39,262 nucleotides of DNA. Origin: Deltaproteobacteria bacterium (GTDB lineage: Bacteria > Desulfobacterota > Desulfobacteria > Desulfobacterales > C00003060). A model generated the notes under the pieces. The model saw nothing but the letters and a program-made list of their open reading frames with translations. It was not told the DNA's origin and did not search any database. Position 1 is the stretch's first letter, and each line of letters opens with the position of its first letter. This document shows, piece after piece, positions 11,383-37,493 of the stretch. The stretch lies in contig JAFGFW010000055.1 of assembly GCA_016930875.1 (NCBI GenBank), positions 1 to 39,262 on the forward strand, given 5' to 3'. The translations under genes and the position numbers were made by a program.

Positions 11383-11548
11383 GCGTCCCTCCAAATACCA
11401 GAAGATTATTTTTTTAATGCCATTATGCAAGAATGTCAATGGCCTTGGTTGGAAAACTGGTAACTTCTGGAAAAGTCCGAGTTATGCGGTTAGCATAGAC
11501 ATCGGCATTTAAGGTCTTCCACTCCGAGTGGTATCTTTTTTCGTAAGC

Positions 11549-11589
11549 GTTCACAGGTTCAGATTTTGGTGAACCCTGAACCTGTGAAC
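11549..11589. repeat. Perfect 14-bp inverted repeat inside GGTTCA-type heptad repeats
   Basis: GTTCACAGGTTCAG (11549-11562) is the exact reverse complement of CTGAACCTGTGAAC (11576-11589), with a 13-base loop. It lies between rsmA and panC in a stretch of TGAACCY units spaced seven bases apart that runs to about 11607. It may form an mRNA hairpin in the rsmA-panC spacer. Confidence 0.6.
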
Positions 11590-11617
11590 CATTGAACCCG
11601 TGAACGGTTACCTTCTT

Positions 11618-12457
11618 TCAATCCTTGAGCAGGTTCGCCAGAGTGACAAATTCCTGTACACTTAGAGTCTCTGCTCGTCTTCGCGGATCAATGTTTGCCA
11701 GATCGAATGCCGCCAATACCCGGCGTTCTTCAAGCCCAAGATCGCTGTTCACTAAGGCGTTCTTGAGCATCTTTCGCCTTTTTCCAAAAGCTGCGCGAAT
11801 TATCCCGGAAAAAAAAACCTCGTCTGTTGCACGAAAAGGCGCTGAGTCGAAAAACTCGACGCTCACAACTCTCGAATCGATTTTCGGCCTTGGATAAAAC
11901 GAAGAGGCCCCTACATGGGCTATAGGGTAAACCTTGGCACAATATTGGATCAAAACAGATAGTCTGCCGTAAGCCTTGGTCCCTGGTTTGGCCAGGAGAC
12001 GTTCGGCAACCTCTTTCTGAAACATGAGAACGGCACGATCGATAGACTCGCGGAAATTGATCAAATGTATCAGGATCTGAGACGAGATGTGATATGGAAG
12101 GTTGCCAGCCACTTTCAGCGGCCGATCTGATGCTTTAGCCAGGTTGTTGATGTCACACCGGAGGATGTCCTTTTCAATAACGGTCACATTGGATACACCT
12201 GCGGCCAGGATCTCGTTTCTGAGCAGCGTGGCAAGCTTTCTGTCTGACTCCACTGCCAGCAAGTGATTAACCCGCCCAGACAAAGGGACGGTCAGGGCCC
12301 CGAGCCCTGCGCCTATCTCAAGGACTGTGTCGTTTGAGCCGAACTGGCTCTGTCTGACGATCATGGTGGCGACGTTCGGATCGGCCAGGAAGTGCTGGCC
12401 CATGGATTTTCTGGGATGTATTGCCCATGCCTTCAGAAGTATGCTCGGAGCAGTCAT
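11618..12457 (-). CDS. rsmA: 16S rRNA dimethyladenosine transferase
   Basis: KsgA/RsmA dimethylates two adjacent adenosines near the 3' end of 16S rRNA late in 30S assembly. The 279-residue product shows KSMGQHFLADPNV, the SAM-binding EIGAGLGALT, the catalytic NLPYHISSQI (motif IV), FQKEVAERLLAKPGTKAYGRLSV, and the C-terminal FYPRPKIDSRVV and FGKRRKMLKNAL. ATG at 12457 has AAAGG upstream; an in-frame GTG at 12478 would add seven residues. It lies in the minus-strand run between galU and panC. Confidence 0.96.
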   Translation of the reverse strand: MTAPSILLKAWAIHPRKSMGQHFLADPNVATMIVRQSQFGSNDTVLEIGAGLGALTVPLSGRVNHLLAVESDRKLATLLRNEILAAGVSNVTVIEKDILRCDINNLAKASDRPLKVAGNLPYHISSQILIHLINFRESIDRAVLMFQKEVAERLLAKPGTKAYGRLSVLIQYCAKVYPIAHVGASSFYPRPKIDSRVVSVEFFDSAPFRATDEVFFSGIIRAAFGKRRKMLKNALVNSDLGLEERRVLAAFDLANIDPRRRAETLSVQEFVTLANLLKD

Positions 12458-13462: not shown

Positions 13463-13497
13463 AACATGTTTGCCCGCAGCTTTCAATCGTTGGACGG

Positions 13498-13532
13498 GAT
13501 GCCAGATACCGGATACCGGATGCTGGATGGCA
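13498..13532. repeat. Degenerate heptad repeat GATRCCG
   Basis: Five consecutive seven-base units, GATGCCA, GATACCG, GATACCG, GATGCTG and GATGGCA, lie in the galU-korA spacer just upstream of the kor promoter. The same unit family reappears at 14751-14785. Confidence 0.65.
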
Positions 13533-13554
13533 ATTTTCAGGCGATTTTCAAGGA

Positions 13555-13584
13555 TTGACAGTTAACGCGATTTTCTGCTATATA
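13555..13584 (+). promoter_or_regulatory. Probable sigma-70 promoter of the kor-hdrA operon
   Basis: A perfect -35 TTGACA (13555-13560) is followed after 18 bases by TATATA (13579-13584). The predicted start is about 35 bases upstream of the korA ATG. Confidence 0.6.
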
Positions 13585-13625
13585 AACAGTTTTTTTATGA
13601 AAATCTGCCCTTTTGGAGTTTCATT

Positions 13626-14717
13626 ATGACCAAGGATACCAAGAGGGTCCTGCTAACCGGAAACGATGCTGTGGTTGAAGGACTCTGTTGCGCTGCTGGG
13701 AACAAGAGGCGCATTGTGTACGCAGGTTATCCCATCACCCCTGCGTCAGAGGTTGCCACCCGTGCTTCTGTAGTTCTCCCAAAACACGGTGGGGCCTTTA
13801 TTCAGATGGAAGATGAGATCGCCTCAATTCAGGCCATTTCCGGAGCAGGTCTCACAGGGGCAATTGCCGTTACGGCTACTTCAGGCCCCGGCTTCAGCTT
13901 GATGTCCGAGGGCCTCGGCTTTGCGGCCATGATTGAATCGCCCGTTGTTTGCGTTAACGTCCAACGAGGTGGACCGTCCACTGGCATGCCAACATGGATG
14001 GGGCAAGGCGACATGATGCAAGCGAGATGGGGTACTCATGGAGAAAGACCCGTGATTGTGCTCGTACCGAACTCTGTTCAGGAGACCTTGCTTTTGACTT
14101 ATGAGTCATGCAGGCTTTCTCAGGAGTATTCGATGCCCGTGGTTTTGATGTTGGATGAGATTATAGGGCATATGGAGGAACCGATCTCCATCCCTGAGCT
14201 TCCTGCCATACCACTTGATCCAGATTTTGAGATCATAGGCAAGGGGCATCGCCTCCATCGAACCGGTCTTACGCATGATCTTCAAACCAATCTTCCCAGG
14301 ATTAATCCTGATGCAGAAGAACAACTGGTTCGACATCTGCTCGATAAGGTCAAGAAGAACGCAAAAAAGATCGTCAAGTATGAAACCTGCGGGGACCTGG
14401 CAAAGGCCGACGTAGTCATTATCTGTTATGGGTCCGAATCTCGATCGGTCGAGGCCGCCGTGAAACAGGCTCGCAGAAGGAATTTGAACGTGGCCATGAT
14501 TCGGCTCATCACAGCCTGGCCGTTTCCGAAAGATTTTCTTCAAGAGCTTGATAGAATACACAGGGTGTTTGTGGTGGCAGAAATTAATGCTGGACAGATG
14601 CGAGTCGAGGTTGAACGCTACATAAAGAAAGGTACGGTTCAGGGTCTGAACCTCATGGGAGGCAGGATTCATACTCCAGGTGAAATTCTGGATGCTATTA
14701 AGACAATTAGTCACTAG
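13626..14717 (+). CDS. korA: 2-oxoacid (probably 2-oxoglutarate):ferredoxin oxidoreductase, alpha subunit
   Basis: Alpha subunit of a CoA-dependent 2-oxoacid:ferredoxin oxidoreductase, which oxidatively decarboxylates 2-oxoacids to acyl-CoA or runs in reverse as a reductive carboxylase. The 363-residue protein has the pyrimidine-binding domain motif YAGYPITPASEV, MEDEIASIQAISGAGLTGA, ATSGPGFSLMSEGLG, and NVQRGGPSTGMPTW, typical of KorA/VorA. GGAG lies before the ATG. The stop codon sits inside the heptad repeat tract that follows. Substrate (2-oxoglutarate versus branched-chain oxoacids) cannot be fixed from sequence alone; KorA is the closest by pattern. Confidence 0.9.
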   Translation: MTKDTKRVLLTGNDAVVEGLCCAAGNKRRIVYAGYPITPASEVATRASVVLPKHGGAFIQMEDEIASIQAISGAGLTGAIAVTATSGPGFSLMSEGLGFAAMIESPVVCVNVQRGGPSTGMPTWMGQGDMMQARWGTHGERPVIVLVPNSVQETLLLTYESCRLSQEYSMPVVLMLDEIIGHMEEPISIPELPAIPLDPDFEIIGKGHRLHRTGLTHDLQTNLPRINPDAEEQLVRHLLDKVKKNAKKIVKYETCGDLAKADVVIICYGSESRSVEAAVKQARRRNLNVAMIRLITAWPFPKDFLQELDRIHRVFVVAEINAGQMRVEVERYIKKGTVQGLNLMGGRIHTPGEILDAIKTISH

Positions 14718-14785
14718 TCACTGGTCATTAGTCATTGGCATTAGTAACCGATGCCGGATGCTGGATACCGGATACCTGATGCCAG
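14709..14785. repeat. Heptad repeat tract between korA and korB
   Basis: Eleven successive seven-base units: AGTCACT x2, GGTCATT, AGTCATT, GGCATTA, GTAACCG, ATGCCGG, ATGCTGG, ATACCGG, ATACCTG, ATGCCAG. Looser AGCAGT-type units continue to about 14845. The tract changes sequence family midway (AGTCAYT to ATRCCGG) while keeping the period, and supplies the korA stop codon. Confidence 0.7.
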
Positions 14786-14867
14786 AAGCGCCGGGAAGAA
14801 GTAAGCAGTAGGGAGTACGCAGTGGGCGCCAATGCCCAGTGACCAGCAACGCAGAAGGGAGTCAGAC

Positions 14868-16286
14868 ATGCCAAACATGGAGATCAGCCAGCATCCATAT
14901 GCTGATCTATTGAGAATAGAGATGATGCCAAACATCTGGTGTTCGGGCTGCCGGATCGGGAGGGTCAAAAATGCATTTATAGAGGCTATTCAAAACCTCG
15001 GCCACAACGCTGACAAGTGTGTGGTGGTTGCCGGAATCGGATGCTCGTCGCGCATTGCAGGTTACCTTAACCTCGACAGTATACATTCAACCCACGGCAG
15101 GGCCATACCCACGGCCCTCGGGGTGAAGCTCGCCAACCCGGAGCTAGTAGTTACTGTGATGGGGGGCGACGGAGATATTCTGGGCATCGGCGGAAATCAT
15201 TTCCTTGCCATGGGCCGCCACGGCCATGACATGAACGTCTTCTGTATGAACAATTATGGTTACAGCATGACAGGTTTTCAGCATGGACCCACGACCCCCC
15301 TCGGGGCCCGGACAATTACTACATCAGGTGGCAGTCCGTATGTGCCGATTAACCCTGTTGCTGTGGCCCTGGCAGCCGGTTACACTTTTGTGGCCCGATC
15401 CACATCTTCCCATCCCTATCATCTTATGGACTGTATGATTTCCGCCATGAACAACAGAGGCCCGAGTTTTGTCGAGATATTGATTCCGTGCATGCTCTTT
15501 GAGAGGCGCAACAAAATCAAATCACTTGAGGCCTTGTTCTTGGAAAAGGCCAACATCAAAGAGACCCTTAGCGAAGAAGACGTCAATGAAACTGATTATT
15601 CAAAGGAGATTAGCCTTGGGATTTTCAGAGATATCCCTGTGCGAGAAAAATCCCAACTGACTCTTGTTAAGCCGACTAAAAAGAAGGCTGCAAAAAAGTA
15701 TCATGTGAGCTTCAAATCAAGGGACAGCGGCATAAAGCATGTGCAAATTCGAATGGAGGGAACCGGAGGGCAGGGGATTGTCCAGGGGGGCAAGACGTTG
15801 ATTCACGCGGCCATGAATATGGATCCTAACTTAAATAGTACAATGACAAAACGATATGGACCAGAGATGAAAGGGGGAAGCTGTCTGACGGATGTGATCC
15901 TTTCCTCTCAGCCTATTGACTACCCTTTTGTGGAAGTTCCGGACTTGCTTCTCATGATGTCGGATATCGTCAGCAAGGAGCGGGGCGGCGAGGTGGTTGT
16001 TAACGACAATGGTACGATTGTTGTGGATGAGTCCATGGTCGATCAGAGTCTGCTGGAGAATGTTGCCGACGGTGTTCAGGTTTTCAAGGTGCCGGCAACC
16101 CAGATTGCTCGCGACAATTTCAAGGTTGTGGTAGCTAACAATGTAATGATGGGCTTTGTCGCTAAAATAACATCGATTATTGATAAGGCCTGCCTAAAAG
16201 CAGCGATCCTTGGGTCTGCTCCACCCGGGACCGAGGAGATGAACCTGGCTGCATTCGACAAGGGGTACGAATTTGGTGGATCGTGA
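14868..16286 (+). CDS. korB: 2-oxoacid:ferredoxin oxidoreductase, fused beta and gamma subunits
   Basis: A 472-residue fusion. Residues 1 to about 270 are the TPP-binding beta subunit: WCSGCRIG, GIGCSSRIAGYLN, THGRAIPTALGVKLANPEL, the TPP/Mg motif GGDGDILGIGGNH with MNNYGYSMTGFQ, and PFVEI-like FVEILIPC. After a Lys-rich linker (KPTKKKAAKK) the rest is the gamma subunit, with RMEGTGGQGIVQGGK and YGPEMKGGSCLTDV. Beta and gamma are separate genes in most KorABC/PorABC systems. ATG at 14868 has AAGGGA seven bases upstream; an ATG at 14832 lies in repeat DNA and is rejected. Operates with korA upstream and the ferredoxin subunit downstream. Confidence 0.93.
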   Translation: MPNMEISQHPYADLLRIEMMPNIWCSGCRIGRVKNAFIEAIQNLGHNADKCVVVAGIGCSSRIAGYLNLDSIHSTHGRAIPTALGVKLANPELVVTVMGGDGDILGIGGNHFLAMGRHGHDMNVFCMNNYGYSMTGFQHGPTTPLGARTITTSGGSPYVPINPVAVALAAGYTFVARSTSSHPYHLMDCMISAMNNRGPSFVEILIPCMLFERRNKIKSLEALFLEKANIKETLSEEDVNETDYSKEISLGIFRDIPVREKSQLTLVKPTKKKAAKKYHVSFKSRDSGIKHVQIRMEGTGGQGIVQGGKTLIHAAMNMDPNLNSTMTKRYGPEMKGGSCLTDVILSSQPIDYPFVEVPDLLLMMSDIVSKERGGEVVVNDNGTIVVDESMVDQSLLENVADGVQVFKVPATQIARDNFKVVVANNVMMGFVAKITSIIDKACLKAAILGSAPPGTEEMNLAAFDKGYEFGGS

Positions 16287-16344
16287 ACGAGCCACAAACG
16301 ATTTACTAATGACAAATGACCAATAACAACATGGCAGGCCAATT

Positions 16345-16665
16345 ATGAAAACTGGAGTTTCAACTTCGAGATACTGGAACATAGGACAATGTACGATACC
16401 TATTGGGAAAGTCGTTATCATAGCGAATTTTTGCAAAGGTGGGGATGACTGTTATGACTGCATAAAATTTTGCCCTGAGAAGGTATTGGAACGAGGCGCC
16501 GTGCCTAATGAAAAAGGTTTCTTTCCTCCCATTCTGGTTAACGAGGGGAAGTGCACGGTCTGCGGCAGATGTCAGCTTTATTGCAGTGAAAACGCAATCT
16601 TTGTCGAGAAAGTTGGCGAACGGACTGTTACAGCCGAGGAGATAGCAATAAGAGAGGAGAATTAA
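16345..16665 (+). CDS. korD: Ferredoxin-type delta subunit of the Kor complex
   Basis: A 106-residue protein with two [4Fe-4S]-type Cys sets: CKGGDDCYDCIKFCPEKVL (C-x5-C-x2-C-x3-CP, with a widened first gap) and CTVCGRCQLYCSENAIF. A central FFPPILVNEGKC segment separates them. The N-terminal 30 residues before the first cluster are not ferredoxin-like. Its place between the beta-gamma fusion and hdrA makes it the likely electron relay from the TPP centre to the HdrA flavin. Compared with ordinary delta subunits, the extended first Cys spacing is unusual. Confidence 0.85.
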   Translation: MKTGVSTSRYWNIGQCTIPIGKVVIIANFCKGGDDCYDCIKFCPEKVLERGAVPNEKGFFPPILVNEGKCTVCGRCQLYCSENAIFVEKVGERTVTAEEIAIREEN

Positions 16666-23184: not shown

Positions 23185-23276
23185 TAGGAATTGAGGAATC
23201 TAGAATTGAGGAATTGGCGGAAATCCATTCAATTGCTGAATCGCTCAATTATTTGTGTGTAACAGGAGGAAATAGA
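23185..23276. repeat. GAATTGA-type repeats in the ilvD-ilvB spacer
   Basis: The spacer contains GGAATTGA, GGAATCTA, GAATTGA and GGAATTG spaced by 7-8 bases, then CAATTGCTGAATCGCTCAAT. It is another member of the heptad-type intergenic repeats and holds no terminator. Confidence 0.45.
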
Positions 23277-32894: not shown

Positions 32895-33746
32895 ATGGTG
32901 GGCGCAGAGGGAAAGGTCGCTTTTCCAGTGATTCCGTCAGATCGAGGAGATGACTTGCACAACCTCGAGTTTGCTGACTCGGCTGACCTGGTTCTTTTTG
33001 TGGCAGGCAATCAATTCATGGTCATGAAAGAACTCCTCCTTGCCTTTCAGGAAGAACACCCGGATATTAAGAAAATCTTTTATGAAACACTTCCACCGGG
33101 CCTGGAGCTGAAACAGATTTTGGCGGGCGGAGCCATCTTTCGGGAAAGCGTCATAGACGTAGTTCCCGATGTCTATGCCTCTGTGACCGAAAAGGCCATG
33201 GAGCGACTTGAAGAGATGGCATTCATTTCAAGGGAAGATTATTTTCTGTATCTTCATAATCGAATTGCCTTCATGACGCCGGAAGGAAATCCTGCGCGGA
33301 TAGCATCGGTTTCTGATCTTGGGCGAGAGGAGGTGCGTATTTCCCAGCCCAATCCGGAGTATGAAGACATTGCTCATTACATTATCGAGATGTATCGCCA
33401 GGCTGGTGGCGAAGACCTTGTGAACCGTATCATGGAAGAGAAGCGGGCAGAGGGGACAACGATTCTGACAATCGTGCACCACAGGGAGACCCCGATGAGG
33501 ATAGCAAAGAGAACAGTTGACGTGGGTCCTGTATGGGCTACCGAGATCATGCATGCACGGCGGCAAGGCCTTGCCGTGGACGTGGTCGAACCAGGAGAAC
33601 ATCTGGATCAAAGGGACGACATCAACTATTATATTTGCCGTTTAAAGAATGCCGTCCACCCTGAGAACGCTGAAAAATTCCTCAATTTCATCAATTCGGT
33701 TCGTGCTCAGGGTATCTATGAAGCTTACGGCTTTGTTCCTTTGTGA
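32895..33746 (+). CDS. Periplasmic-binding-protein-like protein without signal peptide (ModA-like)
   Basis: 283 residues, SD AAGGAGA before ATG 32895. The fold is that of a type 2 solute-binding protein of the molybdate/tungstate family: DLVLFVAGNQFMVMKELLLAFQEEHP, then LKQILAGGAIFRESVIDVVPDVY, FLYLHNRIAFMTPEGNP, and the hinge and C-terminal lobe (VHPENAEKFLNFINSVRAQG then IYEAYGFVP). No signal peptide or lipobox is seen; the N-terminus (VGAEGKVAFPVIPSD) is not hydrophobic, so the protein is predicted cytoplasmic. No permease or ATPase is adjacent. A ligand sensor or metal/cofactor role is possible; the ligand is not known. Confidence 0.75.
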   Translation: MVGAEGKVAFPVIPSDRGDDLHNLEFADSADLVLFVAGNQFMVMKELLLAFQEEHPDIKKIFYETLPPGLELKQILAGGAIFRESVIDVVPDVYASVTEKAMERLEEMAFISREDYFLYLHNRIAFMTPEGNPARIASVSDLGREEVRISQPNPEYEDIAHYIIEMYRQAGGEDLVNRIMEEKRAEGTTILTIVHHRETPMRIAKRTVDVGPVWATEIMHARRQGLAVDVVEPGEHLDQRDDINYYICRLKNAVHPENAEKFLNFINSVRAQGIYEAYGFVPL

Positions 33747-33748
33747 CC

Positions 33749-33800
33749 GTTTACGGGTTCAGGGTTCAAAGGTTCGGGGTTCGGAGATTGAAGGTTCACC
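33749..33800. repeat. GGGTTC-type heptad repeat
   Basis: Units ACGGGTT, CAGGGTT, CAAAGGTT, CGGGGTT and CGGAGATT follow each other at 7-8 bases after the binding-protein-like gene. They belong to the same GGTTCA unit family as the tract at 11549-11607. Confidence 0.55.
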
Positions 33801-33929
33801 TCACAAATCTGAACCGTTGATTCGTGAGTTCTGAATAGAGAAGGTATGAGAATAGAAGGATTCGAAGAGATTGAGGGATGGCAGTTGGCCCGCGAGTCAG
33901 ATCGCAAGGTCAACGAAAAAAGGTAACCC

Positions 33930-33960
33930 CCTCCGGGGCGTAGGCCCTACGGGCCGGAGG
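33930..33960. repeat. GC-rich near-perfect hairpin
   Basis: CCTCCGGGGCGTAGG (33930-33944) and CCTACGGGCCGGAGG (33946-33960) are complementary at 13 of 15 positions around a one-base centre. It may be a terminator remnant or a mobile palindrome; no T run follows. Confidence 0.6.
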
Positions 33961-33967
33961 CTGAACG

Positions 33968-34061
33968 GTTCACCCCGTTAAATAGACTTCCTTTCGGGAC
34001 ACAAAGTGTAATCTTTTCAAGCCGTCAGGCGCAACCTTGCGCCAAATTTAACAGGGTGAAC
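33968..34061. mobile_element. Inverted-repeat element upstream of tldD (MITE-like, no gene)
   Basis: GTTCACCCCGTTAAAT (33968-33983) and ATTTAACAGGGTGAAC (34046-34061) are inverted copies matching at 15 of 16 bases, flanking 62 bases that include a perfect GGCGCAA/TTGCGCC hairpin (34028-34043). Together with the flanking hairpin and heptads this explains the 336-base gap 33747-34082. A miniature element is one reading; no target duplication was proven. Confidence 0.45.
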
Positions 34062-36022: not shown

Positions 36023-37018
36023 ATGGCACAATGGCATTTAAGTTATGACGGCAAGCAGGAAGGTCCCATGGATCAATCGCAAGCAGTGGCCAGGACCCGG
36101 GCCAACCCTGATGGCTTTGCCTGGCGGGAAGGGCTTGCGGAGTGGTTGCCTATATCTCAGGTGGCGGAACTGAGCCAAGCCGCTACACGGGGCGTTGCCC
36201 CACCACTGCCCAACACCCGCACCTCGCACGAGATCGACTACAAGATCATGGGCGCTGAGATGCAGTTTGTCGAGGTGGAGCTTGATCCAGGCGAAAGCGC
36301 GGTGGCCGAGGCGGGCGCAATGATGTACAAGGACAGCTCAGTGGTGATGGAGACCGTGTTCGGGGACGCCTCGAGATCAGGCGGCGGCGGAGGGTTCATG
36401 GACAAGTTGTTGGGTGCGGGCAAACGCTTGCTCACGGGCGAGAGCCTGTTCATGACGGTCTTTACCCACAATGGCCATGGCAAGGCCCATGTTGCCTTTG
36501 GCGCGCCCTATCCGGGCAATATCATCCCGGTCACCCTGACGAACGTGGACGGCTGTCTGATCTGTCAGAAGGACAGCTTCCTTTGCGCTGCCAAGGGAGT
36601 CTCCATCGGCATTCATCTGCAGCGCAAGATCCTGACGGGTCTCTTCGGGGGCGAGGGCTTTATCATGCAGAAACTGGAGGGCGATGGTCTGGTTTTCCTG
36701 CATGCGGGCGGCACTGTGGTAAAGCGCGAACTGAAACCGGGCGAAATCCTGCACGTTGACACCGGCTGCCTGGTAGCCCTGGAGAAGAATGTGCAGTTTG
36801 AGATAGAGCAGGCCGGCAACATCAAGACCGCGCTTTTTGGCGGGGAGGGCCTTTTCTTTGCGACGCTCCACGGGCCCGGGAGGGTATGGTTGCAGTCACT
36901 GCCCTTTTCGCGTCTGGCAGGACGTATGCTCCAGGCAGCTCCGCGGCGCGGCGGCAGAAAGGGCGAGGGCTCTATCCTGGGTGGCCTGGGGGGCTTGCTT
37001 GACGGAGATAATGATTAA
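36023..37018 (+). CDS. GYF_2-AIM24 family protein
   Basis: 331 residues. The first about 50 (WHLSYDGKQEGPMDQSQA, WREGLAEWLPISQV) form a GYF_2 domain. The remainder is AIM24 (TIGR00266 / former DUF124): IMGAEMQFVEVELDPGESAVAEAGAMM, GGGGGFMDKLLGAGKRLLTG, ESLFMTVFTHNG, LHVDTGCLVALE and the Gly-rich C-terminus. AIM24 relates to a mitochondrial inner-membrane protein; the bacterial role is unknown and the form is a beta-rich, probably oligomeric protein. GAGGAGGAAAG precedes the ATG. The gene is visibly more GC-rich than its neighbours, which suggests transfer. Confidence 0.88.
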   Translation: MAQWHLSYDGKQEGPMDQSQAVARTRANPDGFAWREGLAEWLPISQVAELSQAATRGVAPPLPNTRTSHEIDYKIMGAEMQFVEVELDPGESAVAEAGAMMYKDSSVVMETVFGDASRSGGGGGFMDKLLGAGKRLLTGESLFMTVFTHNGHGKAHVAFGAPYPGNIIPVTLTNVDGCLICQKDSFLCAAKGVSIGIHLQRKILTGLFGGEGFIMQKLEGDGLVFLHAGGTVVKRELKPGEILHVDTGCLVALEKNVQFEIEQAGNIKTALFGGEGLFFATLHGPGRVWLQSLPFSRLAGRMLQAAPRRGGRKGEGSILGGLGGLLDGDND

Positions 37019-37493
37019 AGGTGGAAGCTGATTAGATCTGGAAGCTCAAGGCTCAAAGCTGCAAGTCGAAAGCTGTACGTCGGCCATATTTCTTGCGGGC
37101 TTTAAGGACAACAAATATCCAGTCTCTGCCATCTGGTATCCAGCGTCAAGTGTCGAATTTTTACTCTTTGGTTCTTTGTTTTTCCCTCTGAGGCTTCAGC
37201 TTTGAGCCCTCTGCATTTCTCCGGCCCTCAAATAGTATGCCGTGATGTGTCAAAACATTGACGGGAAACCACGCCGTCAAAATGCCGGCCCATCCTGAGA
37301 CTCCACGGCTTTCTTCCCTCCTTTGATCTGATGTATATCCCGATTACGCTATTCGACCTTTTGTATGTTGGTGAAACAGACCGGCATTTTGATTGTTGGC
37401 ACATTAATAGCAACGAAGAAAAGGGGCAACTGATTGCATTTACCAGAGATGGACTTTTTACGAAGCCGTCAAGTTTGACTGAGGGACATTGCA
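37019..37493. other. Repeat-rich 475-base spacer
   Basis: No credible gene. AAGCTCA-type heptads lie at 37024-37075. GGCTCAAAGCTG (37050-37061) and CAGCTTTGAGCC (37197-37208) are perfect inverted copies, as are TCAAAATGCCGG (37277-37288) and CCGGCATTTTGA (37381-37392). The 22-nt dispersed repeat stands at 37450-37471. One or more folded RNAs are possible but unproven. Confidence 0.5.
37450..37471 (+). repeat. Dispersed 22-nt repeat, copy before the histidine kinase
   Basis: Reads TGGACTTTTT-AC-GAAGCCGTCA and ends 22 bases before the kinase ATG. The other copies are at 2943-2964 (minus strand) and, shortened, 153-170. Confidence 0.5.

Follow-up and report, generated by a model that had tools for sequence, protein, structure and literature searches.

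Tandem heptamers, octamers and nonamers in the intergenic spacers of a Desulfobacterales genus as candidate arms of small dispersed hairpin repeats

RESULTS

Periodic spacers at the locus and genome-wide

The DNA analyzed here (the window) is a stretch of 39,262 nucleotides from a Deltaproteobacteria bacterium, a sediment organism of the order Desulfobacterales (assembly GCA_016930875.1, contig JAFGFW010000055.1, our C55), whose 3.68-Mb genome is assembled in 212 contigs. Several of its intergenic spacers carry short tandem units, and an earlier note, made from the letters alone, had listed seven of them as arrays with a strict seven-base period and a differing unit sequence, which it took to suggest a shared mechanism such as slippage, or a helical spacing constraint, rather than copies of one element. 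Our analysis suggests that such spacers may in good part be arms of small dispersed hairpin repeats. The protein of the open reading frame (ORF) at 13626-14717, next to two of the spacers, has its closest named relatives in Deltaproteobacteria and Desulfobacterales metagenome-assembled genomes (86% and 81% identity, respectively). Comparisons relied on two close pairs of genomes within the genus: the home genome with its sister species G009 (95.5% DNA identity over 15 kb), and G005 with G014 (97.4% over 7 kb). All window features are given on the plus strand.

Tested against 2,000 dinucleotide shuffles (P < 0.0005 stands for 0 of 2,000), the heptad periodicity claimed for the seven spacers is clear in four, i.e., 13498-13532 (0.75 at lag 7, P < 0.0005), 14709-14785 (0.67, P < 0.0005), 33749-33800 (0.60, P < 0.0005, with 0.65 at lag 15), and 37024-37075 (0.49, P = 0.0005). 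It is weak in a fifth, 16300-16340 (0.50, P = 0.003, but P = 0.089 when any lag from 4 to 19 is allowed), and the other two are better described by eight: 11549-11607 scores 0.53 at lag 8 versus 0.37 at lag 7 (P = 0.027), and 23185-23240 scores 0.48 at lag 8 (P = 0.025 over lags) versus 0.31 at lag 7 (P = 0.33).

The home-genome survey covered 893 kb of the 3.68 Mb in 61 pieces, with 420 spacers and 109 kb of intergenic DNA delimited by a home-made ORF caller; an array was called at a given lag from at least 15 of 21 matches. The intergenic lag-7 excess over shuffled sequence anticipated by the earlier note is present, with 32 arrays in the 420 spacers against a shuffle mean of 0.8 (maximum, 4), and lag-7 arrays reach 294 per Mb in intergenic DNA versus 26 per Mb in genes. 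The same spacers hold 15 arrays at lag 8, 9 at lag 9, 9 at lag 14, and 11 at lag 16, the remaining lags within 3-30 giving 0-5 each. Likewise, plain autocorrelation of all sampled intergenic DNA confirms the excess at lag 7 (z = 8.9), but lags 8 and 9 match or exceed it (z = 8.8 and 11.6). Seven is the commonest array period, not the exclusive one, and the period is not strict, as lags 8 and 9 are also in excess and families have periods of their own.

In a cross-phylum sample of 78 loci (1.24 Mb), with AT-rich arrays set aside, the DNA outside long ORFs gave 6 arrays at lag 7, 1 each at lags 8 and 10, and 3 each at lags 11 and 13; inside ORFs, lags 7, 8, 10, 11, and 13 gave 11, 4, 5, 15, and 4 arrays. 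Three of the seven lag-7/8 arrays outside ORFs had an inverted partner, with none in controls, from these few cases.

Repeat families have their own periods

Units do differ between spacers, as the earlier note held, but they belong to families that recur across the genome, among them GATRCCN, TGAACC, AATGACN, TTAGGC, and CACGAA. Distances between cores were counted in 233 pieces of genus loci (1.47 Mb in all), with each identical context entered once; the sample includes loci chosen for matching GATRCCNGATRCC. GATRCC cores lie 7 bases apart in 138 pairs, and the same spacing holds for AATGAC (29 pairs), AATAAC (12), and TGCGGA (11). TGAACC occurs at both 7 and 8 (24 pairs each), CACGAA at 8 (15), GAATTG at 8 and 15 (5 each), TTAGGC at 9 (12) and 19 (10), and AATCTG and TCCTGT at 9 (13 and 9, respectively). 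For AGCTGA, there was no pair at 7 and only 3 at 14, and three control words gave at most one pair at 7, 8, or 9. Since the period is fixed at 7, 8, or 9 by family rather than at one spacing, helical phasing was rejected as incompatible with fixed periods of 8 and 9.

Dispersal is evident from the GATRCC pattern GATRCCNGATRCC, which has 49 matches in the home genome, where the reversed pattern has none, and 1 to 90 matches across 21 genus genomes versus 0-2 for the control. In a sampled quarter of the home genome, 33 of 53 array segments were copied elsewhere, as compared with 51 of 212 control segments.

Arms are often inverted

An array was considered paired if its reverse complement was matched at 12 or more of 14 bases within 250 bp. 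This holds for 29 of the 53 home-genome arrays of period 7, 8, or 9 (14/30, 9/14, and 6/9, respectively); reversed and complemented controls gave 0 and 1, and a further direct copy was found for 8. Similar pairing was observed in three pieces of G005 (15 of 26 arrays; controls, 0 and 5) and in G028, which belongs to a different family of the order (5 of 7 arrays in 160 kb; controls, 0 and 2). Counts for G001 were left out because its sequence is interrupted by runs of N. The orientation of GATRCC pairs is constant: all 13 inverted pairs (1 from the home genome and 12 from G031, chosen as paired) read GATRCC...GGYATC, and no pair of reversed order was found in the sources scanned. The G031 elements were picked for close hits on both strands, and hence the paired share there is not a rate.

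One window hairpin is of the GCTGAAR type, with a left arm at 37018-37075 and a right arm, GAGGCTTCAGCTTTGAGCC, at 37190-37208, joined by an inverted match of 13/14 and a predicted fold.

The TGAACC family is a mobile element

TGAACC-family elements are miniature inverted-repeat transposable elements (MITEs), and the family is mobile. Their end motif, GAACCNGTGAACGGTTA, has 83 genome matches with up to 2 mismatches, versus 0 for the reversed control. With their terminal inverted repeats, the elements start near GTARSCGTTCAC and finish near GTGAACGSYTAC, with variants; they were located by means of these ends. The target duplication is 8 bp long: in 18 rows with both ends, two of them sharing the right end, flank identity was 0.57 versus 0.31 on permutation (z = 5.9), four duplications were exact, and the next-best lengths reached z values of 2.8 (10 bp) and 2.5 (7 bp). 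A filled and an empty site could be compared in one clean case, the home-genome insertion L103:9449-9598, which is 150 bp long including the duplication, is flanked by AAAAAAGC on both sides, and faces a near-empty site in G009.

In the window, the spacer at 11549 is such a copy. The MITE spans 11543-11611 (11535-11619 with its duplication), has ends GTAAGCGTTCAC...GTGAACGGTTAC, and is bordered by an imperfect 8-bp duplication, CTTTTTTC at 11535-11542 and CTTCTTTC at 11612-11619, with 7/8 positions matching. G009 is without it, though the corresponding site is not cleanly empty. This copy, together with the dispersal of the families, speaks against the earlier view that the arrays are not copies of one element. 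A second stretch, 33743-33973, is probably a decayed or nested element of the same family; its boundaries are inferred from the ends GTGACCGTTTACGGG and CTGAACGGTTCAC, and the end motif lies at 33744 with 2 mismatches. No target duplication was seen around it, and the period-7 array it contains has an inverted match below the threshold.

The search for a parent transposase covered PF03050 and Y1. An IS66 parent, a guess based on the GTAA ends and the 8-bp duplication of that family, was rejected on the absence of PF03050 from the home genome. Y1_Tnp is present in 19 of 21 genus genomes, with up to 15 matches per genome. A partnership of the kind formed by repetitive extragenic palindromes (REP), or bacterial interspersed mosaic elements (BIME), with REP-associated tyrosine transposases (RAYT, Y1) was also rejected, arrays being no commoner at Y1 loci than in random pieces. 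The Y1 transposase genes at L387, L393, and L409 have open frames of about 340 codons and short inverted ends of their own, e.g., GGGGTCAAATCTTTCC, seen by eye. A plasmid search with one TGAACC element returned no match.

Spacers turn over by whole units and by blocks

The strain comparison proposed in the earlier note uncovered seven whole-unit changes between close species (7, 7, 7, 9, 14, 14, and 14 bp). Between the home genome and G009, array lengths differ by 7 (window 13515), by 14, and, in a period-9 array, by 9; the two arms of one GATRCC hairpin changed by 14 and 7, and in the window hairpin at 37024, G009 has a right arm 14 bp shorter and a left arm that differs by 10, which is not a whole unit. 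In the pair G005/G014, an array made of TGATGAC units in one genome and mostly of TGATGAT in the other differs in length by one 7-bp unit.

Several spacers changed in larger pieces. Blocks differ from G009 at window 14718, L088 19040-19212, and L086 14879-15005; at L086 12516-12668, one sister species has a GATRCC hairpin and the other an octamer hairpin; and the L111/L414 pair represents a further block replacement. At 95-97% identity, many spacers are thus already rebuilt by small hairpins.

GATRCCN cores are conserved around a free base

When two GATRCC cores are matched 14 bases apart, the unit between them is not constrained by the match. The information in this unit, over 68 such rows, amounts to 1.4-1.9 bits for GAT and CC, 0.59 for the purine, and 0.12 for the seventh base. 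Of 57 comparisons between neighboring units in 37 chains, 16 show the same seventh base (16.1 expected); the purine agrees in 44 of 94, fewer than the 53.7 expected (1,983 of 2,000 shuffles reach the observed value). Slippage copying would make neighbors agree; the free base of GATRCCN is not copied, which argues against plain slippage there. The pattern points to a maintained core, which we infer is best read as a recognition site. Other arrays behave differently: AATNACN neighbors share the fourth base in 75 of 92 cases (51.8 expected) and the seventh, near chance, in 20 of 61 (16.3 expected), and units of TGATGAC arrays look copied from one another. A universal rule of core plus free base was rejected, being weak at period 7 and absent at 8 and 9.

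Other arrays and elements

The GATRCCN heptad array at 13497-13530 has no inverted partner at the threshold and is exactly one 7-bp unit shorter in G009. At the end of ORF 13626-14717 lies an AGTCAYT heptad array (the reverse of AATGACN) at 14705-14745, which supplies the last codons and the stop of that ORF (14705-14717). It is followed by a GATRCCN heptad array at 14749-14785 (inverted match of 11/14, below the threshold), the first part of which is common to G009, where a 9-mer array of TTTTAGGCA takes the place of the rest. The sequence at 14828-14844, GCCAATGCCCAGTGACC, is possibly the inverted counterpart of the AGTCAYT array, as judged by eye and from its pairing in a predicted fold. 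For the next gene, a start at 14868 is more probable than one at 14832, because G009 lacks matching sequence before approximately 14855. The three AATGACM heptads at 16308-16329 have the same sequence in G009, are weak alone, and have no inverted partner that we could find. The spacer at 23185 holds an octamer array of GGAATTGA, not a heptad one, at 23186-23216. Positions 1-94 of the window are 98-100% identical to the starts of contigs C13, C14, C37, C71, and C177, so that the contig breaks in a multicopy repeat.

Elements of other kinds were met in the loci compared. A different MITE, TTCGTAAAAAGTC...GACTTTTTACGA, occurs at L125:3119-3268, where it adjoins a GATRCC unit, is bordered by AAACCTGA at either end, and is missing from the G009 site, and as a 54-bp version at L103:6391-6444, also not in G009. 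In G005, an element of 130 bp that ends in AATCTG 9-mers and GGATTAAA was inserted at L318:4654-4783 without target duplication. Copies of it in G014 lie at 8 loci (L356-L359 and L373-L376); of the 9 copies looked at, 4 are full, 2 are interrupted by another insert, and 3 start late, and all 9 reach the same 3' end. The late starts resemble 5'-truncated copies, which offers a lead toward retroposon-like copying. L316:3071-3261 was considered as a 5'-truncated family of the same type and rejected, being actually a mosaic of GGTCTGGGCCAGGG palindromes; with G014 copies among L360-L379, it makes up a mosaic palindromic family, GCCCGCCCTGGCGC...GGTCTGGGCCAGGG, whose members often sit within or next to other arrays, suggestive of nested insertion.

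DISCUSSION

The reading that we favor, to which we assign a probability of about 0.5, is that a good part of the periodic spacers represents arms of dispersed small hairpin repeats with whole-unit turnover. Each arm would consist of tandem units made of a short core and a short linker, totaling 7, 8, or 9 bases by family, and such repeats would fill intergenic spacers across the genus. Families other than TGAACC are probably mobile too, and would spread as nonautonomous mobile or copied elements. The repeated core may further be the binding site of a protein that moves or exploits the element, and binding would hold the core constant as the linker base changes. The unit number would then be altered, and some arrays homogenized, by slippage or unequal exchange among units that are nearly identical.

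A number of observations weigh against these hairpin repeats as the general explanation. In the home genome, 24 of the 53 arrays lack a partner that passes the inverted-match threshold, and only 2 of the 7 scored window arrays (11574 and 37038) have one; this, together with the block replacements in several spacers, limits our confidence. Once the array itself is masked, the flanks are copied elsewhere in 21 of 53 cases versus 51 of 212 controls (P = 0.026), and several arrays, including the window AATGACM, show no shared flanks within the sampled quarter, so that some may be local repeats. GATRCC matches fall to the control level in some genus genomes (1 versus 2 in G002; 2 versus 1 in G004). 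As regards target duplications outside the TGAACC family, the 13 GATRCC pairs, whose ends are not defined, show no evident target duplication (score of 5.00 versus 4.62; SD, 0.25), the scan of other families had 0-2 elements each, too few to judge, and neither the 125-bp insertion after L318:4653 in G005 nor the 54-bp 9-mer hairpin inserted near L318:8296 in G014 is flanked by one. As for a parent enzyme, the IS66 DDE transposase domain PF03050 has 0 matches in the home genome, and arrays of period 7, 8, or 9 are not enriched at Y1 loci (7 of 30, versus 74 of 300 random home-genome pieces). Finally, no arm-to-arm match at the free base was seen in GATRCC pairs (0.19 versus 0.27). A wider survey showed only a small effect of core plus free base at period 7 (175 arrays, 0.348 versus 0.328) and none at 8 or 9; its set includes 8 pieces of G028, which lies outside the genus.

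A first rival, which we hold to be unlikely, is that the arrays are slippage-born simple repeats, made locally by slippage steps of about seven bases and then mutated, homogenized, and lost, with no element or function involved. It accounts for the whole-unit length changes between close species and for the homogenized TGATGAC and TGATGAT arrays in the two genomes, G005 and G014, that are about 97% identical, and the fourth base that AATNACN neighbors share above chance has the look of copying. The spacer after ORF 13626-14717 also counts in its favor, since 6 of 8 relatives (from 10 loci tried) hold a lag-7 array there, 5 of them with other units, as compared with 47 of 420 home-genome spacers with any array of period 7, 8, or 9. 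In addition, an excess of heptamer simple sequence repeats in many bacteria, with polymerase slippage and a polymerase-footprint idea as the proposed cause, is already published, as relayed in PMC4692102. What local slippage leaves unexplained is that units are shared by dozens of loci, that arms are inverted, and that separate families keep to 7, 8, or 9, as well as the uncopied free base of GATRCCN neighbors and the TGAACC insertions with target duplications. A slippage-only origin is weakened for GATRCCN and TGAACC, and slippage, suggested by the earlier note as a shared generator, fits the whole-unit changes but is not supported as the sole source.

Somewhat less likely again is that the arrays are sites of a host regulator or nucleoid protein, i.e., inverted tandem cores that a small DNA-binding protein would bind cooperatively to organize or regulate the chromosome. 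The fixed core with a free seventh base and the fixed order of pairs in GATRCCN would suit such a role, and, in the parts of the report consulted, multicopy paired tandem octamers, 8/9-mers, and heptamers of Geobacter metallireducens were proposed as sites of global regulators (PMC2700814). The ribbon-helix-helix protein Omega is described as binding 7-bp WATCACW heptads (PMC9499535), although the heptad format is all that the Omega/parS sites, as far as that source was covered, have in common with our arrays. On the other hand, hairpin families swap in the same spacer between sister species, and many different cores would each require their own reader protein. As a separate observation, the L001 spacer between genes matching window 14832-16286 and 16345-16665 carries inverted CGTGATT/AATCACG heptads, of which AATCACN resembles the Omega-bound heptads; this is resemblance only.

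It is improbable that the arrays serve operon ends as transcription terminators or as hairpins for RNA processing. Hairpins were predicted, without a shuffled control, in many of 26 folded array regions, but convergent spacers, which make up 9.5 of the 108.8 kb, hold only 1 of the 56 array calls (P = 0.038; 0.11 arrays per kb versus 0.56 in codirectional spacers), arrays are equally dense in divergent and codirectional spacers, and 79 kb (the window, L086, and L088) contain no Rfam match at gathering score; the terminator reading was rejected on the scarcity of arrays between convergent genes. Chance or a low-complexity artifact, for which the listed spacer without lag-7 signal (23185) might speak, is refuted genome-wide by shuffling (32 arrays versus 0.8 expected) and has a negligible probability.

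How the dispersed hairpin repeats relate to known systems was assessed from the portions of the papers cited below. By its description, the architecture of paired tandem 7-/8-mers is already known in G. metallireducens (PMC2700814), whose classes 1-3 are tandem octamers (GTTGCTYN), 8/9-mers, or heptamers (MTYCTGA), paired and multicopy, with classes 1 and 2 on opposite strands at variable distance, as in more than half of the home-genome arrays. The units differ from ours and the likeness is one of architecture by description; target duplication or unit turnover is not reported in the parts of that paper covered. The TGAACC family agrees with the prokaryotic MITEs reviewed in PMC10969869, among which Chunjie of Geobacter uraniireducens is named, in its size of approximately 60-260 bp, terminal inverted repeats, 8-bp duplication, multiple copies, and intergenic location where seen. 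It departs from them, as far as that review was covered, in the internal 7/8-base tandem units of its arms. BrickBuilt of Porphyromonas gingivalis is likewise an intergenic MITE with tandem repeats, but its unit has 23 bases, versus the 7-9-base units in inverted arms described here (PMC4596501).

Among published heptamers, TAACTGA direct repeats are intergenic in marine Beggiatoaceae, cyanobacteria, and Bacteroidetes, and in two Cyanothece strains they differ mostly by indels in 7-nucleotide steps (PMC4679880). Read from another start, TAACTGA becomes GATAACT, which fits the RATNACN seen here. Unlike our families, it is described in the parts covered as one exact unit, located in one genome mostly just upstream of start codons, and with one indirect repeat only (PMC4679880). 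The GGGAATC/GGGGAYT repeats of Xanthomonas and Nostoc are also abundant intergenic heptamers, partly heterogeneous, some of them inverted, and variable in length between relatives; they differ in being G-rich, in preferring four units, and in the quadruplex hypothesis attached to them in the sections consulted (PMC4692102). The likeness to cyanobacterial short tandemly repeated repetitive (STRR) heptamers is resemblance only. In the open-licence literature, we found no report joining inverted heptad arms, family-specific periods, and mobility.

It is tempting to generalize the dispersed hairpin repeats to a broad, many-family class of mobile hairpins, the arms of which would carry putative protein-binding cores at a family-fixed spacing of 7, 8, or 9, and which would nest, replace one another, and explain much of the heptamer excess of bacteria; we regard this extension as doubtful. 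Reports of an intergenic heptamer excess in bacteria have so far lacked an agreed explanation. In one genus, a good part of the excess comes down to families with inverted arms, periods of their own, and whole-unit turnover, and, in GATRCCN, with a core that leaves one base free. Each of these features separates slippage from element or binding-site explanations.

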